Part shown: positions 1-22,261 of the stretch, piece by piece
Layout of the letters: each line of letters begins with the position of its first letter
Numbering within the stretch: the first letter of the stretch is position 1
NCBI RefSeq assembly: GCF_003399635.1
Contig: NZ_NBXB01000033.1
Span: 1 to 64,000 of the forward strand
Direction of reading: 5' to 3'
Source: Subtercola boreus
Lineage (GTDB): Bacteria; Actinomycetota; Actinomycetes; Actinomycetales; Microbacteriaceae
Length of the DNA: 64,000 nucleotides
Notes under the pieces: generated by a model
What the model was told of the DNA's origin: nothing
Seen by the model: the letters and a program-made list of their open reading frames with translations, nothing else
Databases searched by the model: none
Translations under genes and position numbers: made by a program

Positions 1-317
1 TTCCCGCGTCGTCGGTGGTGCGAGGCCTGCAACCGGGCGATCCTGGCGAGGCGCCATACCCGGTTTTCGCTCGCAGCGATCCCGGCATCAGCGAGCTCGT
101 CCGCGAGGAACCGGTAACCCAACGTCGAATCGTTTTCGTGGATCTGCCGCATCACGTCGATGACATGCGCGTCGTCCCAGTCCCGTTGGGAGACCGGATC
201 CCGCAACCATTTGTAATACCCCTGAGTTGAGAGCTTCAGGACCCTGCACGCCACCTTGACCGGAACCCTGACAGGGGCGCCGGTCGCGGCCATTTCGCGG
301 ACGAGCGGGAAGACTAT
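1..317 (-). CDS. IS3-family transposase OrfB, N-terminal part (cut by window edge)
   Basis: The minus strand is open in the -1 frame relative to the adjacent OrfA and runs off the left edge, so only about the first 105 residues are visible. They read like the start of an IS3 OrfB: a short helical region with ACRVLKLSTQGYYKW, then IHENDSTLGYRFLADEL, the usual region before the DDE integrase core. No catalytic D, D or E is in view because the core lies outside the window. As in other IS3 elements, OrfB is probably made as an OrfAB fusion by -1 frameshifting near the AAAA run at the OrfA stop. Whether the element is intact cannot be judged here. Confidence 0.8.
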   Translation of the reverse strand, partial: MVFPLVREMAATGAPVRVPVKVACRVLKLSTQGYYKWLRDPVSQRDWDDAHVIDVMRQIHENDSTLGYRFLADELADAGIAASENRVWRLARIARLQASHHRRRG

Positions 318-610
318 TTTCCCGGCAGGTTCGCCTGCGACAAATACGCGGCCGCCCGACGCAGAACCTCGTTCTCCTGCTCGAGCAACCGGATCCGTTT
401 GTTCGCCTCGCGCAGCTCTTTACGATCCGCGTCGGTAGCGCCTGGACGGTTGCCGTCCTCTATATCGGCTCGTTTCAGCCAGTTCGATAACGTGCCCTCG
501 GAGATCCCGAAGTCCCTCGCAATCTGCGCCGACTGGCCCTGGCCCTTCCGGGCCACCGCCACGACGTCATCACGGAACTCTTTCGGATATGCCTTTGCCA
601 TAACTGACAT
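314..610 (-). CDS. IS3-family transposase OrfA
   Basis: This 98-residue protein has an N-terminal helix-turn-helix (GQGQSAQIARDFGISEGTLSNWLKRA cut short here: core IARDFGISEGTL) and a C-terminal leucine-zipper-like coiled coil (ELREANKRIRLLEQENEVL). That is the standard IS3/IS911 OrfA layout for binding terminal repeats and dimerising. Two ATGs, at 610 and 601, are possible; GGAAGG lies next to the first and 9 nt from the second, so 601 may be the real start. OrfB overlaps in the -1 frame. The element's outer end may be near 641, where the minus strand begins TGATCT, but the other terminal repeat lies outside the window. Confidence 0.88.
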   Translation of the reverse strand: MSVMAKAYPKEFRDDVVAVARKGQGQSAQIARDFGISEGTLSNWLKRADIEDGNRPGATDADRKELREANKRIRLLEQENEVLRRAAAYLSQANLPGK

Positions 611-904: not shown

Positions 905-2824
905 CTAACCATCAACCGGCTGCCATTTGTCGTTCAATGTCATGGTCTTGCTGTTCGGCTCGAAGGGCGGGGCTAGCGCCGAGACACCTACGACCACGGG
1001 GACCTGGGCCGATACGCCTGACAGGATGCAAGTGCCTGTGGGCAAGATCGGTAGGGATTCGAAGGAGACCTTATCGAGATAAGACACCGCCTTCTCGATG
1101 GCATGAATGTCGAGGTTGTTCACGAGGCGATGCAGGAAGTAGTTATGAAGTTGGGAGACGATCGTGTCTGAGATGTCGTGCGGTCGCTGGCTCGCAATCG
1201 TGAGGAACACCCCAAACTTTCGTCCCTCCTTCACGATTTCCTCGAATGTCTCGAGGCGGTAGTCCTTCCAGCTTTCGCTCTCTCTTGCTGAGGTTGTGGA
1301 AAGGATGTTGTGTGCTTCGTCGATGATGATATTGAGAAACTTGCCGTTGTCTGATTTCTTCTTCTTGCGATCGTAGAGCTGGCGGCACGGCAGTAGAGGG
1401 ATGACCTTCTTCATGTCGAGATTGACGTCGCGCAGAGAGATTACGGTCAGAGGCTTATGGATCAGACCCTTCTCGGAGACCTTGAGCAGTTTTCTGATGG
1501 CTGGCATCCGGGTTTCGAGGCGCTTGATGACAGGCCCAAGGTGTTCTCGGTTTGCGAAGCCTCGGAAAATGTCGCTGTAGTACTGGATGATCAGTTTGAA
1601 CCGGATGCGGTTCAAGTGTTTCACTAGGCCGAACTGAAGATCCAGGTTCTTGATCCGGGTGAATGTGAGTTCTCGGAAGAAGTCGTCGTTATTGGGGACG
1701 TTCGCGTAAACGTCCCCTCTCTGGTCATCGCGGTAGTAGAAAGTCCTCCCCACATTGTGGTAGCCGAGCTTCGCGTGTAAATGGTCGATGTAGTCCGTCA
1801 GCTCTTGAGGGGCCTTCTTGCCGAGTGCGAGCGCTACCTCCTTGAGGAAGTGGTTAATCGACGCCCGATCCTGGGCGGAGTCTCCGTTCTTGATGGCATT
1901 GTGGACGATGTATGCGATCTCGTGTTTGAGTGCGTCATCGTCTTCGAGCTTGTCGTCCCAGAAGGTGCTTTCAAGGGTTCTCTGGATGAAGGGGGCCTGT
2001 GTCTTCTCCGACGCGTCCAAGAGGACCGTCCAGAAGACAGGATCTTCAGCCGTCCTCTTGGATATGGGAAGGCGATCTTTTCCATTGCCTCGCGTCGAGA
2101 GTATGTACTCGCGCTTCAAACTGCTATCTGTAATAACGGACGTGGATCGGTTGTCGTCGGTCACCTCGGTGCTATTGACGTACTCGCCGTTGAAATCGAT
2201 GAGTACGAACTCGGCGTTCTGTTTGAACTCTGCGGAGTCCTTGTAGAGCTCGAAAAGCTGGTGGTAGATCGTCGCGAGCGTGTACGACTTGCCGCTCCCA
2301 GTGTTGCCGAAGATTCCGATGTGGCTGGCGAAGACGGCGTCGACGCCTATGTTGACGTTTTGACCCTTCTCCATGGCAAGCGTTCCAATGGTGAGCGCGG
2401 CATCGTCGGCGCTGACGAAGCTGTGTATTTCGTCGAACTCTTCCTGCGTGAGGAGGAAGCAATCGTTGTTGATGAGGGGCAGTTCGCGCACACCTCGTTG
2501 GAACTTGCCTTTTCTGTCGAAGAAGCCGAGCAGGCTAACTGTCAGTATCCGCTCGACATGTGATCGTTTGCTCCCGTAGGTCGAACGAGCCTCGGTGTCT
2601 TCGGAGACGGCTTCACCGTCGACTTTGGCGATGATGTCGTAGAATCCCTTTGCGATCTTGACGTATCCACCTACCGAAACGTTTCTGAGGATCTTGCCTT
2701 GATAGAGGAGGTGGGAGCCGTTTTTCGACTTGTCTACGCGGATGCGAACGCTCCGGCCGCTGACTTCGACGACGCTGCCGATTTTGAATACCGATAGCTC
2801 TTGTGCATCGGTAGCGCTACTCAT
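905..2824 (-). CDS. herA: HerA-like hexameric ATPase of a SIR2-HerA antiphage system
   Basis: This 639-residue FtsK/HerA-clade ATPase has an N-terminal beta-barrel-like region (about residues 10-70, FKIGSVVEVSGRSVRIRV), Walker A GNTGSGKS at about 173-180, a following FVLIDFNGEYV strand, a Walker B-type IIIDEAHNIL, and the C-terminal ASQRPHDIS motif typical of HerA. In SIR2-HerA (Nezha) systems the hexamer assembles with the SIR2 NADase and both are needed for defence. The ATG at 2824 overlaps the sir2 stop by 8 bp (ATGAGTAG), so the two are translationally coupled. A TTG three codons upstream is the alternative start. The gene looks visibly less GC-rich than the core genes to the right, which fits transfer. 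Confidence 0.88.
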   Translation of the reverse strand: MSSATDAQELSVFKIGSVVEVSGRSVRIRVDKSKNGSHLLYQGKILRNVSVGGYVKIAKGFYDIIAKVDGEAVSEDTEARSTYGSKRSHVERILTVSLLGFFDRKGKFQRGVRELPLINNDCFLLTQEEFDEIHSFVSADDAALTIGTLAMEKGQNVNIGVDAVFASHIGIFGNTGSGKSYTLATIYHQLFELYKDSAEFKQNAEFVLIDFNGEYVNSTEVTDDNRSTSVITDSSLKREYILSTRGNGKDRLPISKRTAEDPVFWTVLLDASEKTQAPFIQRTLESTFWDDKLEDDDALKHEIAYIVHNAIKNGDSAQDRASINHFLKEVALALGKKAPQELTDYIDHLHAKLGYHNVGRTFYYRDDQRGDVYANVPNNDDFFRELTFTRIKNLDLQFGLVKHLNRIRFKLIIQYYSDIFRGFANREHLGPVIKRLETRMPAIRKLLKVSEKGLIHKPLTVISLRDVNLDMKKVIPLLPCRQLYDRKKKKSDNGKFLNIIIDEAHNILSTTSARESESWKDYRLETFEEIVKEGRKFGVFLTIASQRPHDISDTIVSQLHNYFLHRLVNNLDIHAIEKAVSYLDKVSFESLPILPTGTCILSGVSAQVPVVVGVSALAPPFEPNSKTMTLNDKWQPVDG

Positions 2825-4058
2825 CGCCGTCAAGCTCCAGCGGTTGAGCGAGCTTTAGGCGAACATCCACGACGCTGTCGGGCCTACGAGGAGGTTTGGG
2901 CAGCAGGGGCTCGAAGAAGATCTCAGTGATCCGGCGCAGGCTGTACTTGTCTTGTTCGGCTTCGTCGTCTGTTTCCGGAGGGCCAACGACAAGTATGTTG
3001 CCGTTCGACGCGAGATCGGCGTCGAGTCGGTCTTTCAACGCTTGCACTTCGCCAGGGAGGTAGGCGAACACGATGACCTGAAGAGTCGGGTTGGTTCGGG
3101 CTGCCCTGATGATGAGCTCTCGGATATGTTCGTCTCGACACGAGAATCCGATGATGAACAGGACGCTGTTCTCCTTCTCTAGGCTGTTCGAAAAGAGTCG
3201 GAGCAGATCGTAGTAGTTCTGATTCAGCACGGTGACGCTAAACTTGTCCTTGTTGGGGTTGACGATCGCAAGCTCTTCATAGGCCGTCATGAAGTCGGCC
3301 AGCGTGGCCTCGTCATAGTCATCATCGGGGTCGCTCGTGGCGGTCAGGAGGATGTCGATGTCGGTGGCTCTGTCGATTTCGTAGAGGGCTTCGGTCGCGT
3401 TGGTGAGCTCCTCCTCGATCGCTTCGATGCGTTCCCTGTCCGAGTCAAAGGTGATGATGTTCTTTGACTCGCCGCCAGAGTCGATGGCTCGAGTAGCCCA
3501 GCTAGTCGAACCATGGAGCTTCAGCAGATTGAAAGTGGGAACCTCAGAGAGGTTGTCGTACTGAAGACTGCGCCGTGACTTGACCGTGCCGAAATTGCTG
3601 GTACTGAACAGAGGTAGGTATCGCCCTGAGAATCCATCGTTGAGTTCCAGTTGCAGCTCCTCTGCCGCCACCTCGACAGCGACGTCCACATTGGTTGTGA
3701 AGAGATTGACCTGCTTATCGAGAATCGAACTCCGGCGGCGGACAAGGAGCGTGTTTACAGTCCGGAGGAATTTTCTATAGGACTGCAGCACTGCGTCTGC
3801 ATCTGAGTCCTCTGCGAGGATGTTCTGGTTCGGAGCGATGACACCTTCAAAAAAGTACGCATATACGGAAGCCCTTACGCGATCTAGTCTGCTTCTCGCA
3901 GTCGCTTCGTCTCGCGAAAGCTGCGTGAGCCAGTCTTCGACCGCTCCGAGCGGTTTAAGCAGATCCGCTGACGCCCCGGCTCCTAGGAGGAAGTTCAGGT
4001 TTGCATCTTGAACGATGTCGCGAAGTTCTTCGACGGTGAGACGGTTCGCACCCTGCAT
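2817..4058 (-). CDS. SIR2-domain NADase of a SIR2-HerA antiphage system
   Basis: This is a 413-residue SIR2-fold protein. The NAD-binding glycine loop is LLGAGAS (about 24-30), TTNVD is at 121-125, LKLHGS with the catalytic-type His is at about 180-184, and FIIGFSCRDEHI near 310 matches the late Rossmann motif of SIR2-type defence NADases. In the known system the enzyme depletes NAD+ on phage infection in complex with HerA. The reading frame is open to a GTG at 4175, but the first 39 residues look non-coding, and an ATG at 4058 preceded by a purine-rich GAGACCGGAAAG stretch fits the family start. It is the first gene of the operon, and its promoter should lie in 4059-4255. Confidence 0.88.
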   Translation of the reverse strand: MQGANRLTVEELRDIVQDANLNFLLGAGASADLLKPLGAVEDWLTQLSRDEATARSRLDRVRASVYAYFFEGVIAPNQNILAEDSDADAVLQSYRKFLRTVNTLLVRRRSSILDKQVNLFTTNVDVAVEVAAEELQLELNDGFSGRYLPLFSTSNFGTVKSRRSLQYDNLSEVPTFNLLKLHGSTSWATRAIDSGGESKNIITFDSDRERIEAIEEELTNATEALYEIDRATDIDILLTATSDPDDDYDEATLADFMTAYEELAIVNPNKDKFSVTVLNQNYYDLLRLFSNSLEKENSVLFIIGFSCRDEHIRELIIRAARTNPTLQVIVFAYLPGEVQALKDRLDADLASNGNILVVGPPETDDEAEQDKYSLRRITEIFFEPLLPKPPRRPDSVVDVRLKLAQPLELDGDE

Positions 4059-4309
4059 CTTTCCGGTCTCGCTTTCCACGCCGCTGTGCTCCGATTGGGG
4101 CCGTGGCGAAACCTCACACGATCCGAACTGGGTTGCGCATCCCCTCAACGCACTTCCGGTTGAAATGCATAGCACAAGGATACCGTCGCCCGGTTACATC
4201 CATGCTCCGACATGATGTCCGACCCCACCGATAAACTCCGACCCATGCGTCGCAGTGAAGCGCCCTGGGTTTGTTGGAGGCTCCTGACCTTGGAAACGAG
4301 GATGGAGTC

Positions 4310-4654
4310 ATGGTGTCGAATCAGGGATCTGGGAAGCCGACGGCGCGTCGGTATTCACCGGAGGAGAAGGCTGCCGCGGTCCGGATGGTGCGGACGTTGC
4401 GGGCGGAACTCGGGACTGAGCACGGGACGGTTCATCGAGTCGCGACGCAGCTCGGATACGGCGTCGAGTCGGTGCGGATGTGGGTCAAGCAAGCCGATGT
4501 TGACGACGGTCACGTCGCCGGCGTGAGCACCGCCGAAGCCCGCCGGATGCGGGAGTTGGAGCAGGAGGTTCGCGAGTTGCGTCGGGCCAATGAGATTTTG
4601 AAGCGGGCTGCGAGTTTCTTGGGGGCGGAGCTCGACCGCCAACACCGGAAGTAG
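4310..4654 (+). CDS. IS3-family transposase OrfA
   Basis: This 114-residue protein has an N-terminal helix-turn-helix (ARRYSPEEKAAAVRMV, then VATQLGYGVESVRMWV) and a coiled-coil C-terminus (MRELEQEVRELRRANEILKR), the classical IS3 OrfA organisation. The ATG at 4310 was chosen over an in-frame upstream start at 4271 because the family begins shortly before the SPEEK segment. A run of five G (about 4620-4624) near the end is a possible slip site for the -1 fusion with OrfB. It is a different element from the one at the left window edge, since both proteins and termini differ. Confidence 0.9.
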   Translation: MVSNQGSGKPTARRYSPEEKAAAVRMVRTLRAELGTEHGTVHRVATQLGYGVESVRMWVKQADVDDGHVAGVSTAEARRMRELEQEVRELRRANEILKRAASFLGAELDRQHRK

Positions 4655-5574
4655 TTGCGTTCATCGACGCGAACAAAAACGAAGTCGTCGAGGGTCGCCC
4701 GCTCGGAGTCGAGCCCATCTGCGCGTTGCTGCACGTGGCTCCGAGCACCTATTACGCCGCCAAGGATCGGGTTCCCTCGGCCCGCGCGGTCAGCGACGCG
4801 GTACTCATCCCGGAGCTGGTCATGCTCTGGAACGCGAACTATTGCGTTTACGGGGTCCGCAAGCTCTGGAAGGCCGCCCGCCGCGCCGGGATCGACATCG
4901 GTCGAGACCAGACGGGTCGGCTGATGCGCGCAGCCGGAATCGAAGGGGCAACACGGTCGAAGCGCATCAAGACGACACGCCCTGATCCTGCCGCTGCGCG
5001 TCACCCGGATCTGGTGGAGCGGGAGTTCACCGCGACCGCCCCGAATCGGCTCTGGGTGACTGATCTGACGTTCGTGCCGACCTGGGCTGGCGTCGCGTAT
5101 GTCTGCTTCATCATCGACGCCTACTCGCGGATGATCGTGGGGTGGAGATGCGCGTCACACATGCGCACCGAGATGGTCCTCGACACGATCGAGATGGCGA
5201 GGTGGGGTCGCGACGCTCACCACGCCGACCTCCGGTGTCACAGCGACGCCGGGTCTCAATTCACGTCAATTCGCTACGGCGAACGACTCGCCGAGATCGG
5301 CGCAACACCCTCGATCGGAACGGTCGGTGACAGCTACGACAATGCCCTGGCCGAGACGGTGAACGGCTACTACAAGACAGAACTCGTCCGCGGACCCGCA
5401 CGACCAGGACCCTGGCGGACGGTCGAGGACCTCGAGCTTGCGACCCTCGGCTGGGTGCACCGGCACAACACCCAACGCCTCCACGGCTACCTCGGCGATA
5501 TCCCACCCGTCAAGTTAGAGCAGATCTTCTATGCTGACCAAACGCCCGGCAATCAGCTGGCGGGAATCAAATAG
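4651..5574 (+). CDS. IS3-family transposase OrfB (DDE integrase core)
   Basis: OrfB lies in the -1 frame relative to OrfA and is probably expressed as an OrfAB frameshift fusion. The first ATG (4726) falls inside conserved sequence, so the left boundary given is only the readable frame. The helical N-terminal region (HVAPSTYYA, YGVRKLWKAARRAGI) is followed by the rve core with all three acidic residues: D in WVTDLTFV, D in HSDAGSQFTS, and E in NALAETVNGYYKTEL. The C-terminal WVHRHNTQRLHGYLG is typical of IS3 family proteins. No internal stop is visible, so the transposase may be active. Confidence 0.9.
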   Translation, partial: VVAFIDANKNEVVEGRPLGVEPICALLHVAPSTYYAAKDRVPSARAVSDAVLIPELVMLWNANYCVYGVRKLWKAARRAGIDIGRDQTGRLMRAAGIEGATRSKRIKTTRPDPAAARHPDLVEREFTATAPNRLWVTDLTFVPTWAGVAYVCFIIDAYSRMIVGWRCASHMRTEMVLDTIEMARWGRDAHHADLRCHSDAGSQFTSIRYGERLAEIGATPSIGTVGDSYDNALAETVNGYYKTELVRGPARPGPWRTVEDLELATLGWVHRHNTQRLHGYLGDIPPVKLEQIFYADQTPGNQLAGIK

Positions 5575-6285: not shown

Positions 6286-6349
6286 CATAAACATGCTCTG
6301 ATCAGGTATTTATCTACATTTACACTGTGCAATAGGTTGCAATCAGCAG

Positions 6350-6421
6350 TGCCCCTGGAGGGACTCGAACCCCCAACCTAATCCTTAGGACGGACTTGCT
6401 CTTCCATTGAGCTACAGAGGC
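6350..6421 (-). tRNA. tRNA-Arg (anticodon CCT)
   Basis: The minus strand folds as a 72-nt cloverleaf. The acceptor GCCTCTG pairs with CAGGGGC plus discriminator A; the D-arm GCTC/GAGC and anticodon stem AGTCC/GGATT have a GTCCTAA loop, giving anticodon CCT; the T-arm GGGGG-TTCGAGT-CCCTC is present. CCA is not encoded. The gene separates the mobile island on the left from core genes on the right, and tRNA genes of this class are common integration targets. Confidence 0.95.
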
Positions 6422-10385: not shown

Positions 10386-11528
10386 CTAGCTGAGCGTCGA
10401 GCCTCGGGCACTGATGAAGTCGACATGCAGGTGGCTGCAGGAGTCACTGAACTCGGAGAGATTCACGAAGCCGGAACCGGATGACCGGCAGCCGCTCTGT
10501 CCGACGTTGGTGTTCGGCGGTACCAGCGGGTCGAGCAGCCTGAGCAGCTTCATCGAATCCGAATCACCTCCGGTCAGGCTGTGGCCGTTCAGGATGTAGA
10601 AGTCGACGGCGTGACCGCCGCCCGACCGATAGTGCGGCGAATTGGTGCCGGCACCCTCGATCTGGCCGGTGCAGAGCCGGTTGATGTCGCTGACCCCGAC
10701 CTTCGAGAAGTTGTCGACCGCGACCTTGATGGTCTGGAGCACGCGGATGTCGACACCGCAGCCATCGACGACCTGGCCGGACGCGAGGTACCCGATCTCC
10801 TTGATGTGATCGGGCCGGGAGCCGACGAGCTTTCCCGACGCGACGGCATCCATCAGCTGCTGGGCGAGCGCCTGCACCGCAGGAGCGACGGTCGAGGGGT
10901 AGGCCGCCGCCGTGATCGCGGTGCTGGAGGAGAGTTTGAGCGCCGCAGCCTGTGAGGCGGCCTGGGCCGCAGCAGCGGCAGCCAGCTGCTGCGCCTTCAG
11001 CTCTTCCTGCGTCGGAGCCTGGTAGTCGTCGCGGGTCACAGCCAGCGCGGCCTGGTCGGCACTGCTCTGGATGCTCTGCTGTCCGGCCCCGAACGGAGCG
11101 GCGTCCGAGACGGGGCTGAACGCTCCCGACGTGGAGAACGCGTACGCCGGCAACGCCATGGTGGCAATCAGGCCGAATGCCGCCGTCATGACGGCGATGT
11201 TCGCAACACGGCGCTTCTTCGACGGGCGCGACCTGCCGGGCTTTCCGAGCAGCGGCCGGGCAGGCGAGACGGTGCGGACCGCCGGGAGGGGACGGCCGAC
11301 GGGTACGGCTTCTGCTGCTGGCGCCGGATTCACAGGCACGTCGGCAACCCGAGCGGGCGCCAGGTGCTCGAGGACCTGAGCCGGAACGATCGGAACGACC
11401 GGCCGCGCGCCGGTGAGGTGAGCAACGATCCCCGGCGGGATCTCGGTCGCCCGCCCACCATCCGCGCGCTCGCTCAGCAGGCGCTCGTGCTCACGGCGTG
11501 CACGCCTCGTCGATGGAACCTCTGACAT
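10386..11528 (-). CDS. Exported M15-like peptidase-domain protein
   Basis: The protein has 380 residues. An N-terminal cytoplasmic Arg/Pro-rich stretch of about 110 residues precedes a transmembrane or signal segment (NIAVMTAAFGLIATMALPAYAF). A short Gln/Ala helix follows, then a domain with SPHYRSGGGHAVDF and CSHLHVDF, the same putative zinc motifs as the protein at 6602. The reading frame is open further upstream to 11789, but that part overlaps the NlpC/P60 gene. The ATG at 11528 lies 8 bp after that gene's stop, so translation is probably coupled. The M15-like assignment rests on spacing of His/Asp residues and is not certain. Confidence 0.75.
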   Translation of the reverse strand: MSEVPSTRRARREHERLLSERADGGRATEIPPGIVAHLTGARPVVPIVPAQVLEHLAPARVADVPVNPAPAAEAVPVGRPLPAVRTVSPARPLLGKPGRSRPSKKRRVANIAVMTAAFGLIATMALPAYAFSTSGAFSPVSDAAPFGAGQQSIQSSADQAALAVTRDDYQAPTQEELKAQQLAAAAAAQAASQAAALKLSSSTAITAAAYPSTVAPAVQALAQQLMDAVASGKLVGSRPDHIKEIGYLASGQVVDGCGVDIRVLQTIKVAVDNFSKVGVSDINRLCTGQIEGAGTNSPHYRSGGGHAVDFYILNGHSLTGGDSDSMKLLRLLDPLVPPNTNVGQSGCRSSGSGFVNLSEFSDSCSHLHVDFISARGSTLS

Positions 11529-11536
11529 GGACGGGC

Positions 11537-12400
11537 TTAGATTCCCAGCCGCACGAAGTAGTAGCTGCCCCAGACGGGTCGGTGTTCGACATAGCGGCCC
11601 CAGTCGGGCGAGTCGATCATCGTGCCGTCGCCAGCGTAGATGCCGATGTGGCCGATCGGGTAGACCATCAGGTCGCCGGCCTGGGCGTCGGCGGCGGAGA
11701 TACGCGTGCCCATCGCCGCCTGGTTGCTGACGGTGCGCGGCAGCTTGATGCCGAACTGCCCGAAGACGTACTGGGTGAGGCCGTCGCATCCGAAGCTCGT
11801 GTCGGGGCTCGCACCGGCACCGTAGGGAACGACACCGACGAACTGCTGGGCGAAGGCGACCACAGCTTCACCACTGTAGGGGCCCGACGGCGGGTTCACC
11901 ACGAGACCGCTCTGCGACGATGTGCTGGCCTTCGACGTCACCGAGGTGCTCTGCGACGATGTGCTGGCCTTCGACGTCACCGAGGTGCTCGCCACCGTGG
12001 CGACCTGGAGTGCAGCGGCCTTCGCTGCGGCGGCTGCCGCCTCGGCCTCTACCTTCGCTTTGGCTGCGGCGAGGTCGTCCTTGCTGGGCGCGACGTAGGT
12101 GTCGCGGCTCACGGTCGAATCGACAGCGGCCGCATCGACCGCGAGGGTCTGCTGGCCGGTCTGCATCGACGTCGCCGATGAGCTCGGGTCGAACGCGCCA
12201 GCGGTGCTGAAAGCGTAGGCGGGGAGCGCCATTGTGGCGATCAGCCCGGCCGCGGCCGTCATGACCACGGTGCTGGCAATGCCGCGCTTCGTGACCTTGA
12301 GCGTCTTGCGGGGTTTTGCATGGGAGACCCTGGCTCGGGTCAGGTTCTTCGGGTTCCGCTTCGACTCGGGTGAGTCTTGCATTTCGCTCGAAAGGGGCAA
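11537..12400 (-). CDS. Exported NlpC/P60 peptidoglycan endopeptidase
   Basis: This is a 287-residue protein with a TTG start at 12400, chosen because GGAGG lies 8 nt upstream; an ATG at 12382 is the alternative. After a basic N-terminus comes a signal or anchor segment (TVVMTAAAGLIATMALPAYAF) nearly identical to that of the next gene. A short Ala/Lys helix follows, then a duplicated 13-residue Ser/Thr linker, then the NlpC/P60 domain. The catalytic Cys is in SFGCDGLTQY and the His in IGHIGIYAG. It probably cleaves peptidoglycan stem peptides and is first in a two-gene operon with the M15-like protein. The long leader may carry a riboswitch. Confidence 0.85.
   Translation of the reverse strand: MPLSSEMQDSPESKRNPKNLTRARVSHAKPRKTLKVTKRGIASTVVMTAAAGLIATMALPAYAFSTAGAFDPSSSATSMQTGQQTLAVDAAAVDSTVSRDTYVAPSKDDLAAAKAKVEAEAAAAAAKAAALQVATVASTSVTSKASTSSQSTSVTSKASTSSQSGLVVNPPSGPYSGEAVVAFAQQFVGVVPYGAGASPDTSFGCDGLTQYVFGQFGIKLPRTVSNQAAMGTRISAADAQAGDLMVYPIGHIGIYAGDGTMIDSPDWGRYVEHRPVWGSYYFVRLGI
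11909..11986. repeat. Perfect 39-bp tandem duplication inside the NlpC/P60 gene
   Basis: Two adjacent identical 39-bp units (11909-11947 and 11948-11986) encode two copies of STSVTSKASTSSQ in the linker before the NlpC/P60 domain. The length is a multiple of three, so the frame is kept and the linker can vary in length by slippage. Confidence 0.95.
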
Positions 12401-15906: not shown

Positions 15907-16176
15907 GTGACCAAGACAGACACTCAACCCATTTCACGGGTCCAACGCATTCTCGCGTACATGGTCGCCAGCGCGATCGGCCTCTCCATCCTCGCTTTCC
16001 TTGCTGTCATCATCGGCACCGCCGCCGGCATGAAGGGCGACAGTTTCAGCCAGGGGGTCTGGCCCACGATCCTCGTGCTTCCGCTGTTCGGTCTCCCTCT
16101 CGCCATCGCGCTGTTCATCGCGCTCCTGGCGGTGAACCTCGTCAGACGATCCCGCGAGGCTCGTAGCTCCAGATGA
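15907..16176 (+). CDS. Small two-TM membrane protein
   Basis: This 89-residue protein has two hydrophobic segments, ILAYMVASAIGLSILAFLAV (about 14-33) and WPTILVLPLFGLPLAIALFI (about 51-70), and a basic C-terminus. GTG at 15907 is chosen because homologous small actinobacterial proteins begin with this MTKTDT-like segment. A GTG at 15889 is also in frame, and AGGAG sits unusually close to the chosen start. Its stop overlaps the start of the next gene (ATGA), so they are translationally coupled. Function unknown. Confidence 0.7.
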   Translation: MTKTDTQPISRVQRILAYMVASAIGLSILAFLAVIIGTAAGMKGDSFSQGVWPTILVLPLFGLPLAIALFIALLAVNLVRRSREARSSR

Positions 16177-17981
16177 GCGACACGCTCGCCCTGGCCAGCC
16201 GACTGCAGACCGAGAGCGACGACGCCCTGATCTCGCTGTTGGAGTCGCGTCACCTCTCCGGACGAGATCTGCGGGACTTCTTCGACCTGGCCGACGCGCT
16301 GCTCCGCCCGGAGTCGGTCATGGATGCCCTGTCCCACCTCGACCGGCCCACCCTCGCCTTGGTGGCCGCAGGCGGCACTCGAGTCGCTGATGCCGCAACT
16401 CCCCTGTTGGATGCAGCCGCTGCGATGCTGCTCGCAGACGTCGACGGCGTGCTTCAGCCCTACGACAGCGTCCGCACCGTGCTCGAGGGCTGGCCTGCCG
16501 CCGGTCTTCCCTCCGTCTCCGACCTCGCGGGTGTCGAGGCGCCGGCGGCTCCCCCGGCGCCATCCTCCGCAGAACGGAACGGCACCGACCGCATCGCTGC
16601 CGAAAGCGCTTTCGAGACCACCGTCGCCGTGACAGAGCTGACGAATGCCCTCGCCACCCTGCCCGCCCGCGAACTGGCCAAGGGCGGCCTCGCGGTGCCC
16701 GACGCCAAACGCCTGGCCGCCGCAACGGGCCAACCGCCCGAGACGATGAACGTCATTCTGCGGGTGGCCCGGATCGCGGGCCTGGCAGCTCGGGAGAATT
16801 CCTCGTGGTTCGCCACGCCGTACTCCCGCGAGTGGATGCTGCTGCCACTAGCCGAACGCTGGGGCCGCCTGTCATCGGCCTGGCTCAGCGCCCTCGACGA
16901 GAACGTGCGTGAGGTTCTCTGTCGGCGCATCGACAGCACCTGGGGTGAGAACCTCACCGAATACCTTCAGTGGCTCTACCCGGCGGGTGGCGAGGCTCTC
17001 TCCCGCCAGATCGCCGAGTTCACAGTGGATGCCGAGCGCCTCGGCATCGTCACGGCAGGCTTCGCGAGCTCCGCCGGCACCGCTCTGCTCTGCGAGAACG
17101 AGGCGGCCGCCATCCAATCGGTAGAGCTCCTGCTGCCGCCCGAGGTCGACACCGTCTACCTCCAGCACGATCTCACCATCGTCGCGCCGGGCCCCCTGAA
17201 GCCCGAGATCGACGCCACCCTCCGCCAGCTGGCCCAGGTCGAGTCCCACTCGATCGCCTCGTCGTACCGCATCTCGCAAGGCTCGATCGCGCGGGCGCTC
17301 AGTGCGGGATTCACAGCGGAGAGCATCCGGAGCTTCCTGGCGAGCATCGCGCCGGGGGGCATCCCGCAGCCGCTGGAATACCTCATCGCCGAATCGAGCG
17401 CGCGCTACGGTCTGCTGCGGGCCGGGGCCCTCGAGCAACTGGACGCCGAGCAGCCCAGGAGCTTCGTGCGCTCTGACGACATCTCTCTCCTGCACACGAT
17501 CGTCGTCGACGCCAACCTCACCAGCCTCGACCTCCTCTTCGAGGGCGCGAACCGCCTGACCAGTCGCTACGACCTCGACACGGTCTACTGGATGCTCGTG
17601 GATGCCCGCTACCCGGTGATCGCCGAGGGGGCCGACGGCAACCCCGTGGCCCTCAACCGCCTGCACGTTGCCGAACCTCGTCGCCACATCACCAATGAGG
17701 TCGCCGAACAGCTGGTGAACCGGCTCCGCGGCAGCGGCGTGCGGCCGGGTGCCGACACGGCAGAGGCCTGGCTCGTGCGCCAGCTCGACGTTGCGGTCAA
17801 GGGAAAGACGCCCGTCATCGTCACCGTCAGGTTGCCGAACGGCTCTGAGGTCAGTTTTCCCGTGGTTCCGACGAGCATCGGCAGCGGACGGATGCGCGGA
17901 ACCGACCAGAAGGCCGGCGTCGAACGCACCCTCCCCCTCGCCAGCATCACGCAGGTGCAGCTGGCCCCCGCCACGAGCTAG
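16173..17981 (+). CDS. Helicase-associated (XPB/Ssl2-like helicase partner) protein
   Basis: This 602-residue protein is of the actinobacterial helicase-associated (Helicase_C_3-like) family. It is mostly helical at the N-terminus, with winged-helix-like segments (GLAVPDAKRLAAATGQPPETMNVILRVARIAGL). The C-terminal half contains VDTVYLQHDLTIVAPGPL and SYRISQGSIARALSAGFTAESI, conserved in the family. In related genomes the gene typically lies directly before the XPB-type DNA helicase. Here the pair is split by a convergent Hsp90-like gene ending 17 bp downstream. It probably acts with XPB in DNA repair, but its biochemical role is not defined. Confidence 0.8.
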   Translation: MSDTLALASRLQTESDDALISLLESRHLSGRDLRDFFDLADALLRPESVMDALSHLDRPTLALVAAGGTRVADAATPLLDAAAAMLLADVDGVLQPYDSVRTVLEGWPAAGLPSVSDLAGVEAPAAPPAPSSAERNGTDRIAAESAFETTVAVTELTNALATLPARELAKGGLAVPDAKRLAAATGQPPETMNVILRVARIAGLAARENSSWFATPYSREWMLLPLAERWGRLSSAWLSALDENVREVLCRRIDSTWGENLTEYLQWLYPAGGEALSRQIAEFTVDAERLGIVTAGFASSAGTALLCENEAAAIQSVELLLPPEVDTVYLQHDLTIVAPGPLKPEIDATLRQLAQVESHSIASSYRISQGSIARALSAGFTAESIRSFLASIAPGGIPQPLEYLIAESSARYGLLRAGALEQLDAEQPRSFVRSDDISLLHTIVVDANLTSLDLLFEGANRLTSRYDLDTVYWMLVDARYPVIAEGADGNPVALNRLHVAEPRRHITNEVAEQLVNRLRGSGVRPGADTAEAWLVRQLDVAVKGKTPVIVTVRLPNGSEVSFPVVPTSIGSGRMRGTDQKAGVERTLPLASITQVQLAPATS

Positions 17982-17997: not shown

Positions 17998-20523
17998 TCA
18001 TGGGGTGACAGGCCCGGGGCGCACGACCAGGAAGTCATCCGACGACGCATCGATGAGCAAACCCAGCCTCTGTGCGTCGACAAGCACCTTTTTCATCGAA
18101 CGCCCAGAACTTTGCGAGACCAGTGCAACCTCGAGGAGCGAGAGGGTGTCCCCCAGAGCACGCCACGGGCTACCTCCGTTGCCTCCTCGGTTGAGAAGCG
18201 CTCGATCGCGAGACTTGAGCTTGCCGAACGGGTTGGGTGCCGTGGTGTAGCCCAACCGCTCAAGCCGTCTGACGACCTTCTTCTCAGGCCGGCCCCACTC
18301 CTTCGCCCTCGACCAGACGTGTAGATAGGGGATCTCACTGGAACGCGGCCAGAAGATCCTGCGCACGTAGTCGAGCGCCGCAAGACTGACATCCTCTCGC
18401 GTCAGAGACATGGGCTCGATGGTCAACCGAGGATTGCCCTCGTCGTGCAGATGTTCCGCCAGTCGAGCGATGTCCTGGTCCCGACGACCGTCGATCCTAG
18501 ACAGTGTCTCAGGTATCTCCGGCCAGACCGGATGCCCCAGCCTGCCGAATCGGCGTCGCACCTCGTCTTCGGAGTGGTCAGTCTGGCTGACGCTCTTCTC
18601 CAGTCTCTTCTTCGAGATCGGATACGCTCTCTCCAGGAACGGGGCAAGGCCGTCCAGGTCCCGGCTCACGAGCAGCAGGTCCACGTGATCGAGCTCGAAC
18701 GGTTCGTAGTCGGAATTCACATCGACACGGAACCCGAGCCGACGTAGCCCTGCGGTCACCTCACCAACGGTGCTCTGCAGAACCATGGACGCCCGGAAGA
18801 CCGCGTCCATGCTCACGGCGGACTTTGCGAGGCGCCACGGCGCGACACCATCCGCGTTCTTGCTGGCCCAGACCAGTTCGAACGGGGTCGGCGGGGCATC
18901 CAGAATACTGCGCCACGTGGGCTGAACCTCGAGCTTTCTCGTCCGAAGAATCTCATCGGCCTCCTCGAAAGGAAGCTGGAGATCCCAAGCAGTGAGTATG
19001 ACATCGAAAGCCTTGAACTCGCGTGGCTCGTCGACGTTCCAGCTCGAGTTCCGATTGAGGAGCGCCCGGATGAAGTCATTCGAGGGCGGCAGCGACTCCG
19101 CTTCGGCCGGCACGGGCAGACCCAGCACTCGGGCGCGGGAGACGACGCGATCAATCGGCCAGCGCAGGTGGCGCTCAGCGTCGTAGATGGCGGTGGCGTC
19201 CGCATCCCACGGCGAGATCTCCTGGATCGTCAGCATCGAGCTGGTAGTCTGCGCCGTGGCAAGGAACACTGCATCTGTCGGAGATGCGCGAACCACCCCT
19301 GCGACCATATTCGAGGCCCTGTTGCCGAATCTCGGGTGCGCTCCGGCCACGATACGCCTGCTCATGGACCATCCGGCTGCCCGCATGGGCTCGGCAACTC
19401 TGTCGAAATCGCCATCACCCACCAGATACCCTGCCACAGCCACATTCAGGGGCTTCGGCTTCTGCTGTATGACCAGGTCCGCGCGTTCGGAAGCACTTTC
19501 CACAATTGCGTCAACGAGGGCCGGGTTGAACGGGAATGCACTGTCGAGCCAGAACTGGGTTCCGACGAACTGCCACGCCGCGCCGATTGCGGTGGGAATC
19601 GCCTCGAGGGTGACCCTGTCGCAGTACGCCTCGTCGAATTCGAGGATGCGCCGCCGGTCGATTGTCAGTTTCGGCAGCTGGTCGCCGGTCAGGTTGATGA
19701 TCGCGCCGTAGAGGAACGATTCGGCCCAGATTCCGTCCGACAACACCGGGCCCCAGCCGTCGACCCACCAGATACCCGTCGCTTCGTCCTCAACCGGCGA
19801 ACTACCGGAGCGGGTCCTGACGTGCCTCGACGAGATGTTCACATCCCCAGCACCCCACTCGTGTCTGAGACCCTTGTCATCATCCGCTGTCATCCCAAAC
19901 GGGCACAGAATCACCAGATCCCTCAGGGTCGAGAGCCCGGACACGCTCACCCCTGGTTTCAGCCGGAGCCGGATCGTCGTGCCCTGCTGGGTTCCTGGGC
20001 CGTCGTCGTGGATCTCGAACTCAGCACCCTGGTTCGGAATCACCACGCGCAGCTGCCTGCCCAGGGAACCGTTCCGCTCGTAGAGGGTGGTCGTGATGTC
20101 GACCCTCGTCGCCAGCATGAAGTAGGAGAGCACACCGACGCCGAACTGCGAGTTCGTCCAGAGCGAGACAGGCGGGTCTGCATGCCGATAGTCCTCGAGC
20201 TCCTCCAGGAAGTCTGCCCGGTCGGTCGAACGGATCCCGGCACGGCTGAAGGCCTGCTCCAACTCGCGCAACCCCATCCCCACTCCCGAATCCGAGCATT
20301 CGAGATAGCGCGCACCATCCGCATCCAACCCCTCAGAGAAACGGATGCGCTTCTCAGCACCCTCGTGGGCACCGACTCGGAGGTACTCCCGTCGAGCATC
20401 CAGGTGCCTACAGGCATCCACCGCATTCTGGTAGAGCTCGCGCACCGCCAGGGCAGGATCGCCGTAGAGCCGCTCGCCCATCAGCAGATCCCGTACTCGT
20501 GCGTCATCGAGTTCGAATTTCAT
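17998..20523 (-). CDS. Hsp90-like GHKL ATPase with winged-helix-like C-terminal repeats
   Basis: An 841-residue protein. The N-terminal 200 residues form a GHKL/Hsp90-type ATPase: VRELYQNAVDACRH (28-41, catalytic Glu and Mg-binding Asn), CSDSGVGMGLREL (76-88), NSQFGVGVLSYF (124-135) and GTTIRLRL near 180. The C-terminal 300 residues hold several degenerate helical units with RRLG/ERLG motifs that look like winged helix-turn-helix repeats. HtpG is shorter and lacks these. Proteins combining Hsp90-like ATPases with wHTH units have been predicted in prokaryotic conflict systems; function here is inference. ATG at 20523 has GAGAGG 7 nt upstream. It sits alone, opposite to and between two functionally linked helicase genes, as if inserted. 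Confidence 0.75.
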   Translation of the reverse strand: MKFELDDARVRDLLMGERLYGDPALAVRELYQNAVDACRHLDARREYLRVGAHEGAEKRIRFSEGLDADGARYLECSDSGVGMGLRELEQAFSRAGIRSTDRADFLEELEDYRHADPPVSLWTNSQFGVGVLSYFMLATRVDITTTLYERNGSLGRQLRVVIPNQGAEFEIHDDGPGTQQGTTIRLRLKPGVSVSGLSTLRDLVILCPFGMTADDDKGLRHEWGAGDVNISSRHVRTRSGSSPVEDEATGIWWVDGWGPVLSDGIWAESFLYGAIINLTGDQLPKLTIDRRRILEFDEAYCDRVTLEAIPTAIGAAWQFVGTQFWLDSAFPFNPALVDAIVESASERADLVIQQKPKPLNVAVAGYLVGDGDFDRVAEPMRAAGWSMSRRIVAGAHPRFGNRASNMVAGVVRASPTDAVFLATAQTTSSMLTIQEISPWDADATAIYDAERHLRWPIDRVVSRARVLGLPVPAEAESLPPSNDFIRALLNRNSSWNVDEPREFKAFDVILTAWDLQLPFEEADEILRTRKLEVQPTWRSILDAPPTPFELVWASKNADGVAPWRLAKSAVSMDAVFRASMVLQSTVGEVTAGLRRLGFRVDVNSDYEPFELDHVDLLLVSRDLDGLAPFLERAYPISKKRLEKSVSQTDHSEDEVRRRFGRLGHPVWPEIPETLSRIDGRRDQDIARLAEHLHDEGNPRLTIEPMSLTREDVSLAALDYVRRIFWPRSSEIPYLHVWSRAKEWGRPEKKVVRRLERLGYTTAPNPFGKLKSRDRALLNRGGNGGSPWRALGDTLSLLEVALVSQSSGRSMKKVLVDAQRLGLLIDASSDDFLVVRPGPVTP

Positions 20524-20541
20524 CGCATGACCTCTCTAATA

Positions 20542-20554
20542 TGACGAAATGTCA
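20542..20554. promoter_or_regulatory. Inverted repeat in the divergent promoter region
   Basis: TGAC-GAAAT-GTCA lies 19 bp upstream of the Hsp90-like ATG in the most AT-rich part of the 103-bp gap before XPB. It is placed where an operator or the core promoter of the Hsp90-like gene would be. No regulator is recognised. Confidence 0.3.
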
Positions 20555-20626
20555 CTATAAGGGGTGCCGGTGGGTGGTGGGCGCGAGGGGCAGCACGCTT
20601 ACTCGGGCCACGTAAGCTTGGCAGTT

Positions 20627-22261
20627 ATGCCAGACGGACCACTGATCGTTCAGAGCGACCGCACCGTGCTGCTCGAGGTCGCGCATCCACAGGCCGACAG
20701 CGCGCGCCACGAGCTCGCGGTGTTCGCTGAGCTCGAGCGGGCCCCCGAGCACATCCACACCTACCGCATCACGCGCCTCGGCCTCTGGAACGCCCGGGCG
20801 GCCGGCCACACAGCCGAGGAGATTCTGGGAACGCTCGAACGCTACTCGAAGTTCCAGGTGCCACAGTCTGTGTCGATCGACATCGCCGAGACCGTGGGTC
20901 GGTACGGCCGTCTCGTCATTGAGCGCCAACCCGACGGGGTACTGACGCTGCGTGCCACCGACACCGCTGTGCTGACGGAGATCGTGAAGGGGCGCCGCAT
21001 TGCTCCCCTACTGCCGTCGCGGCTGTCGGATGACACGTTCGTCATCGAGCCGTGGGCGCGCGGCCAACTGAAACAGGAGCTCGTCAAGCTCGGCTGGCCA
21101 GCGGAGGACTTTGCGGGCTATACCCCCGGCACACCGCACGAGATCACCCTCGACACGACCGACTGGCAGCTCCGCGGCTACCAGCAGGAAGCGATCGACA
21201 ACTTCTTCGAGCGCGGATCGGGTGTTGTCGTGCTTCCCTGCGGCGCAGGCAAGACGCTCGTCGGCGCCGGCGCCATGGCCACCGCGAAGACGAACACGCT
21301 CATCCTCGTCACGAATACCGTCTCGGCGCGCCAGTGGCGTTCGGAGCTGCTCCGCCGCACCTCTCTCACGGAGGACGAGATCGGTGAATACTCCGGCCAG
21401 GTCAAAGAGGTCAAGCCGGTGACGATCGCGACCTACCAGATCCTCACCGCAAAGCGAAAGGGCGCCTACGCGCATCTGGAACTCCTCGACGCGCTCGACT
21501 GGGGACTCGTCGTGTACGACGAAGTGCACCTGCTGCCCGCTCCGGTCTTCAAGCTGACCGCCGACCTCCAGGCACGCCGACGGCTCGGGCTCACCGCCAC
21601 GCTGGTGCGGGAGGACGGGCGCGAGGGCGACGTCTTCAGCCTCATCGGTCCGAAGCGCTTCGACGCCCCGTGGAAGGAGATCGAGGCCCAGGGCTACATC
21701 TCCCCCGCCGACTGCTTCGAGGTGCGGATCGACCTGCCGCAACAGGACAGGCTCGTCTACGCGGCGGCTTCGGATGACGAGCGGTACCGGCTCGCAGCGA
21801 CAGCCCCTGCCAAACTCGACGTCGTGAAGGCTCTCGTGGCCAAGCATGCCGGAGAACGCATACTCGTGATCGGCCAGTACCTCGACCAGCTCGAGGAACT
21901 CTCGGCCGAACTCGACGTGCCGCAACTCACCGGGTCGACCCCGATTCCGGAACGGGAACGGCTCTACCAGGCCTTCCGCGACGGGGACGAGCCCATCCTC
22001 GTGGTGAGCAAGGTCGCGAACTTCTCGGTCGATCTGCCGGAGGCGACCGTCGCGATCCAGGTCTCGGGATCGTTCGGCTCGCGCCAGGAGGAGGCCCAGC
22101 GTCTCGGCCGGCTGCTCCGTCCGAAGGAGTCCGGGCTCTCGGCGAACTTCTACACGCTTGTCGCCCGGGACACAGTGGACCAGGACTTCGCACAGAACCG
22201 GCAGCGGTTCCTCGCCGAACAGGGTTACAGCTACACGATCCTCGACGCTGCGTCGCTGTGA
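20627..22261 (+). CDS. XPB/Rad25-like DNA repair helicase
   Basis: This 544-residue superfamily 2 helicase has an N-terminal damage-recognition-like domain (1-170), QLRGYQQEAIDNFF (Q-motif region), Walker A PCGAGKTLVGA, DEVH (in VVYDEVHLLPAP), LTATLVREDG (motif III), and the C-terminal RecA lobe with SRQEEAQRLGRLLRP (motif VI). Bacterial XPB is typical of Actinobacteria and unwinds DNA 3'-5'. The frame is open to 20564, but ATG 20627 with PDGPLIVQSD matches the family start. Its usual partner is the gene at 16173. A two-component system starts 45 bp downstream. Confidence 0.92.
   Translation: MPDGPLIVQSDRTVLLEVAHPQADSARHELAVFAELERAPEHIHTYRITRLGLWNARAAGHTAEEILGTLERYSKFQVPQSVSIDIAETVGRYGRLVIERQPDGVLTLRATDTAVLTEIVKGRRIAPLLPSRLSDDTFVIEPWARGQLKQELVKLGWPAEDFAGYTPGTPHEITLDTTDWQLRGYQQEAIDNFFERGSGVVVLPCGAGKTLVGAGAMATAKTNTLILVTNTVSARQWRSELLRRTSLTEDEIGEYSGQVKEVKPVTIATYQILTAKRKGAYAHLELLDALDWGLVVYDEVHLLPAPVFKLTADLQARRRLGLTATLVREDGREGDVFSLIGPKRFDAPWKEIEAQGYISPADCFEVRIDLPQQDRLVYAAASDDERYRLAATAPAKLDVVKALVAKHAGERILVIGQYLDQLEELSAELDVPQLTGSTPIPERERLYQAFRDGDEPILVVSKVANFSVDLPEATVAIQVSGSFGSRQEEAQRLGRLLRPKESGLSANFYTLVARDTVDQDFAQNRQRFLAEQGYSYTILDAASL

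Follow-up and report, generated by a model that had tools for sequence, protein, structure and literature searches.

In the window, by which is meant the whole 64,000-nucleotide stretch of DNA that was analysed, an Hsp90-like gene was found between the genes for a Helicase_C_3 partner protein (HelC3) and the DNA repair helicase XPB (Table 1). The strand, coordinates and 841-residue length of the open reading frame (ORF) were as first noted. Pfam analysis of the protein gave no iHD-CE match and no N-terminal caspase or TIR domain, the ORF starting at the Hsp90 domain itself. In the long relative L055 iHD-CE ends at residue 604 and the Hsp90 domain begins at residue 617, and the window protein starts at that junction; because its start coincides with the iHD/Hsp90 junction of the long forms, it is referred to here as headless. 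A sigma-70 consensus scan of the putative promoter interval (20524-20626) detected no site.

Table 1. Features of the window, in order of position.
Feature	Position	Strand	Remarks
HerA	905-2833	-	PADLOC 5.8e-172
SIR2	2817-4175	-	PADLOC 1.3e-54
Helicase_C_3 partner gene (HelC3)	16173-17981	+	Flank, outside the system
Headless Hsp90-wHTH protein (P0001)	17998-20523	-	841 aa, ATG start, single open frame
wHTH-like repeat unit 5	18046-18240	-	Residues 762-826; HMM 1e-6
wHTH-like repeat unit 4	18235-18483	-	Residues 681-763; HMM 4e-10; PF24410 at 18247-18402
wHTH-like repeat unit 3	18520-18726	-	Residues 600-668; HMM 1e-11; PF24410 at 18535-18693
wHTH-like repeat unit 2	18718-19014	-	Residues 504-602; HMM 7e-12; PF24410 at 18730-18894
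wHTH-like repeat unit 1	19105-19329	-	Residues 399-473; HMM made here, 2e-6
Hsp90-like middle domain	19489-19923	-	Residues 201-345, ends approximate
Hsp90-like N-terminal ATPase domain	19924-20523	-	Residues 1-200, ends approximate
Putative promoter of the Hsp90 gene	20524-20626		Intergenic, between divergent starts; TATAGT-like hexamer and AGAGAGG before the ATG, by eye
DNA repair helicase XPB	20564-22261	+	Flank; likely start ATG 20627, from conservation in relatives

A SIR2-HerA pair was also present in the window (905-4175, minus strand), approximately 14 kb from the headless gene. Transposase ORFs flanked the pair at 314-610 (minus strand) and at 4271-4654 and 4726-5574 (plus strand), with a tRNA-Arg at 6349-6421. 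The two genes are a defence pair of a familiar type, and the segment on which they lie looks like a mobile insert. A further ORF, at 10386-11789 on the minus strand, had no match in Pfam or NCBIfam and matched at least one neighbouring stretch in related Subtercola genomes; it may be a gene, or a piece of one, that was duplicated locally.

The initial annotation had claimed a set of N-terminal GHKL motifs and an architecture in which an Hsp90-like part is followed by repeats, and both claims were borne out. In an alignment of 37 rows, residues E29, N33, D36, D78, G80, G82, G128, G130 and T182 were invariant, and the motif set of the window protein is therefore not due to chance. R290 of the middle domain was invariant as well; it is a candidate catalytic arginine, matched to the Hsp90 arginine by eye, the automatic alignment having left the two unpaired. 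An AlphaFold2 model based on the same alignment (mean pLDDT 85.6, pTM 0.82) was compared with the PDB using Foldseek; the best 50 of the 847 matches were all Hsp90-family chains or Hsp90 complexes (best E 5e-12), and by this comparison of the predicted structure the N-terminal and middle domain fold of the HtpG/Hsp90 chaperones was present. A phmmer search of PDB sequences returned Hsp90-family N domains (best 1.6e-7), HATPase_c gave a weak Pfam match, and the NCBIfam HtpG model matched residues 14-190 only (54.4 bits, 7.6e-15), far under its cut-off of 371. Of the Hsp90-like core we are sure. The protein shares with HtpG, TRAP1 and Hsp90 the fold and motifs of the N-terminal ATPase and middle domains; unlike them, it has a repeat array instead of a recognisable Hsp90 C-terminal domain.

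Phage RIIA proteins accounted for many of the best 50 viral-structure (BFVD) matches to the model of the window protein (m69287e83c074), with fold similarity over 350-480 columns. Unlike RIIA, which is phage-encoded, the window protein had no sequence match in phage records, and no relative of it was detected in viral contigs. A GHKL ATPase module is also found in VcSduA, a GHKL-containing Shedu protein that, in the consulted excerpts of its source (PMC12137116), is reported to be anti-phage and to carry a DUF4263 nuclease; in contrast to that description, no DUF4263 or other nuclease domain was matched in the window protein (Pfam, E <= 1).

The remainder of the protein matched PF24410 (wHTH-HSP90_Na-assoc) in four stretches (E 8e-27, 93.8 bits against a cut-off of 23), and five units were recognised by an HMM that was built here from the units of the family. 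Across 80 scored proteins, the window protein included, the number of units ranged from 2 to 14, with at least six in 55 of the 80. The consensus of the unit was D-L-x-L-L-S-x-D-L-D-G-x-x-P-W-L, then two helices ending in V-A-x-R-L-x-x-L-G, and its predicted secondary structure (helix, short strand, two helices, short strand) was as would be expected for a minimal winged helix. When the array was modelled alone (pLDDT 83.9, pTM 0.58) Foldseek gave no PDB match at E <= 0.001, the insignificant matches including some HTH proteins. The winged-helix fold of the units, suggested by the Pfam name and the predicted secondary structure, is less certain. The structure predictions used 37 rows for the whole protein and 30 rows for the array, chosen from the loci.

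Relatives of the window protein were sought in a scan in which each species was represented by a single genome. Of the 326 that were confirmed the best 80 were kept and analysed, and any short forms in the remaining 246 would escape this analysis. The hosts of these 80 were actinobacteria, cyanobacteria, an acidobacterium, a planctomycete and a methanosarcinal archaeon. Most of the ORFs of the relatives, which were called mechanically, were 1,100-2,300 residues long, and the Hsp90 core mostly began 325-956 residues into the protein. All nine non-headless proteins that were scanned full-length with Pfam had iHD-CE (PF24401) before the Hsp90-repeat core, in L049 as a partial match. At the N-termini of 18 long relatives Pfam recognised a caspase in 13, a TIR domain in one and no effector in four, namely L043, L091, L117 and L049. 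The first three of these, with iHD-CE and no effector recognised by Pfam, are possible steps between the caspase-headed and the headless forms. Pepco was encoded by all five of the small upstream ORFs that were scanned at the loci of long relatives, and the ORF cluster containing these ORFs touched 34 of 84 loci, a count that includes spurious ORFs among the mechanical calls. PADLOC analysis of two long relatives matched only a caspase model.

The long relatives are caspase/TIR-iHD-Hsp90-wHTH proteins (PF00656/PF13676, PF24401 and PF24410), some of which have a Pepco neighbour (PF24393), and the large members look like immune machines. Reportedly, in silico work, probably from the Aravind group, has put such proteins forward as conflict systems. 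The window protein resembles them in having an Hsp90-like core, its ATP site intact, ahead of PF24410 repeats, and it can be aligned with them throughout; unlike them it has no effector, iHD-CE or Pepco neighbour, and its repeats are fewer than in most. The link to conflict systems that had been suggested at the outset is supported by the long relatives with caspase or TIR, iHD-CE and Pepco. The claim of an undescribed, stand-alone form was upheld in part: no effector or adaptor accompanied the protein, which is, however, a truncated member of a family modelled in Pfam and has a second copy in its genome. In the literature search no experimental work on caspase/TIR-iHD-Hsp90 proteins was found, nor a source of PF24410 or PF24401, nor anything on the headless protein; nothing bearing on the latter was contained in the excerpts consulted of PMC7159879, PMC8195603, PMC3710099, PMC11090510 and PMC10907252.

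A search of 396 genomes of the phylum with PF24410, in which 16 candidates were scored per genome among the matches listed, gave matches in eight, including the genome of the window (G000). Two of the other seven had multi-unit genes, both with iHD-CE in the same long frame, and in each of the remaining five a single weak unit was found, which exceeded the cut-off in two. None of the 159 plasmid records with a match spanned 80% of the query; among the 40 best plasmid matches the top one was a partial match of 41% to a Streptomyces plasmid, and the rest had 17-26% coverage, many being annotated as htpG. One genome of the family Microbacteriaceae (G307) was seen to encode a 1,050-residue protein (L143:2282-5434) in which, by eye, an HD-type domain is followed by an Hsp90-like domain; it is a possible cousin with another head.

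Eight headless copies were found: two each in G000 and in S. boreus (G002), and one each in G001, G009 and two genomes of the Herbiconiux group. Among 398 Microbacteriaceae genomes, for each of which up to two candidates were scored, 21 had any match, six of them of the headless kind and 15 with partial weak matches. Thirteen of these 15 lay in open frames of 598-697 residues, and the five that were examined aligned in the manner of HtpG. Seven headless rows, from the two genera Subtercola and Herbiconiux, formed a single clade, with an SH-aLRT of 98 in a tree of 83 rows, from which L116 (located at the edge of a contig) and rows failing the start or length filter were omitted, and with support of 100/99 in a more careful tree of 17 of those 83 rows. 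The sister of the headless clade was L049, from a Micrococcales MAG, which retains only iHD-CE positions 241-318. The S. boreus row had a long branch because its longest open frame, probably including a misread stretch, was used as is.

The HelC3 and XPB genes were present in all 12 Subtercola genomes and were adjacent in nine; in the other three (G000, G002 and G009) the headless gene lay between them on the other strand, which confirmed its insertion between genes that are usually neighbours. The empty sites included those of G003 and G001, in which HelC3 was 96 and 89% identical to that of the window. With nine of 12 sites empty and six of 398 family genomes positive, the gene is variably present rather than conserved across the Microbacteriaceae. 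The three copies at the XPB site formed a subclade (98/95).

The second headless copy of the window's genome was located near valS, and the other headless copies outside the XPB site likewise lay between valS and the PEP carboxykinase gene; these names, and those of clpX, the HlyD-like gene and the permease gene, are what we take the genes to be from the look of their sequences. The valS interval was occupied in three of the 12 Subtercola genomes (G000, G001 and G002) and at both Herbiconiux loci, the Subtercola copies lying on either side of a HlyD-like/permease pair. It was gene-free in eight other Subtercola genomes, and in G007 the valS side alone was seen, and was empty. No shared partner gene was seen by eye among the ORFs at the valS site, and beside the headless gene at the XPB and valS sites no partner or effector gene and no adjoining defence gene was recognised. 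Carriage on a mobile element was considered; no transposase or integrase was present among the identified immediate neighbours, of which those at the valS site fell outside the family-library scan. Upstream of all five valS-site copies (L013, L015, L017, L041 and L141) a TANNNT-like hexamer was seen by eye exactly six bases 5' of the ATG or GTG, a spacing like that of leaderless mRNAs that was absent at the three XPB-site copies.

Evolutionary rates were estimated by simple Nei-Gojobori counts. Between G000 and G009 the dS of the headless gene was 2.04, compared to 1.03 for HelC3, 1.24 for XPB and 0.86 for serC. In the G000-G001 comparison of the valS-site copies it was 1.35, compared to 0.30 for valS, 0.47 for the HlyD-like gene and 0.38 for PEP carboxykinase; HelC3, elsewhere in the genome, gave 0.66 for this pair. 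Since the dS of the headless copies exceeds that of the flanking genes, these values suggest that divergent alleles may have been exchanged at fixed sites rather than passed on by plain descent; nearness of dS to saturation and differences in codon bias among the genes could both contribute to the excess. The G001 copy was not significantly nearer to Herbiconiux than to G000, as exchange between genera would have it (AU p 0.066). The dN/dS ratio rose from 0.23-0.30 in the Hsp90 part to 0.39-0.44 in the C-terminal part; for the G000-G009 pair the headless gene gave 0.316 and HelC3 0.275 (0.10 for G000-G001), and by this measure the headless protein is not exceptional, the two G000-G009 values being close. 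Identity to the window protein was 45-55% in the Hsp90 part and 28-34% in the remainder. A constrained gene whose recognition part changes faster fits a role in conflict.

The explanation that we favour, and to which we assign about even confidence, is that the product of the headless gene corresponds to the recognising and switching half of a caspase/TIR-iHD-Hsp90-wHTH conflict protein and works as a switch without a dedicated effector. The effector and the iHD adaptor would have been lost in a lineage ancestral to the copies of Subtercola and Herbiconiux. In favour of this explanation are the domain content with its intact ATP site, the lack of a head in cis and of iHD-CE, caspase and Pepco matches in the 12 Subtercola genomes, the patchy presence of the gene at two sites and the faster change of its repeats. 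Against it count the failure to find an effector, a partner gene or an adjoining defence gene, the lack of a PADLOC match to the window protein and the lack of relatives in phage records and viral contigs.

An unlikely alternative, to be weighed before the others, is that the system is split, so that the headless protein drives an effector encoded elsewhere and unrelated to the caspase/TIR-iHD heads. The retained ATP-site residues and the persistence of the repeats, as if a signal were still made, agree with such an arrangement, as does the lack of a recognised effector in cis at either site. Evidence for the known partners in trans was not obtained: none of the 12 Subtercola genomes matched the caspase or the Pepco model or had iHD-CE over the cut-off, these three being the models with which the genomes were searched. 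iHD-CE over the cut-off was likewise found in none of the 398 Microbacteriaceae genomes, four of which had sub-threshold matches. The same search detected iHD-CE in five of six genomes reached through relatives, the sixth being a Herbiconiux. No head remnant was detected when eight head sequences were compared by tblastn with the window and the seven other headless loci.

It is doubtful, and somewhat more so, that the gene is the decaying remnant of a lost system, under weak constraint and with no present function. In S. boreus both copies contain frame breaks, for which decay, turnover or an error of the draft assembly could each account; the gene is absent from most species, and the five units of the window protein fall below the number seen in most of the scored proteins. 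Against decay, the other six of the eight headless copies are open frames, the GHKL residues are invariant, dN/dS is well below 1 and the clade covers two genera.

We regard as improbable an ATP-gated DNA clamp of the MORC/GHKL kind, in which the repeats would bind DNA and the closed dimer would block or compact foreign DNA with no need of a toxic effector. The combination of GHKL domain, middle domain and HTH-like units would suit such a clamp, and the final two units of the window protein have basic pI values (9.3 and 10.9). The repeats of the family, however, are net acidic, with a median charge of -3.25 per 100 residues (range -8.4 to +0.5), the window protein having the least acidic repeats at +0.5, and the PDB search with the array, as described above, returned insignificant matches only. 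Because the repeats are acidic to neutral, recognition of protein seems likelier than binding of DNA. A housekeeping role, as an accessory to the XPB-HelC3 pair in DNA repair or as a chaperone, is prompted by the position of the gene; it is very improbable and at that locus was rejected because of the empty sites, the gene also having a second copy at an unrelated locus, an orientation opposite to that of the pair and a protein identity of 41-46%, compared to 91-94% for XPB.

If the headless protein is the recognition-and-switch half of a conflict protein, ATP would drive closure of the Hsp90-like clamp, with a target bound by the wHTH-like repeats. In the long relatives this movement would pass via the iHD to the caspase or TIR domain; the headless form would most likely act by holding on to the bound target itself or by remodelling it, in a conflict setting that is probably phage infection. 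In its boldest form, which we advance tentatively and to which belongs less than half of the confidence placed in the whole, the protein would be an NLR-like sensor-switch, stripped of its killing enzyme and adaptor, that acts directly to neutralise its target and confers immunity without suicide of the cell. The anti-phage activity of the headless protein is putative. At 841 residues, this natural pairing of an ATPase with a recognition array is of a size suited to expression and purification, and it allows the action of the Hsp90 switch and of the repeats to be studied apart from a toxic head, which makes it worth an experiment. If it is true that the headless protein protects cells alone, clamps of the Hsp90 type would count among the direct immune effectors of bacteria.
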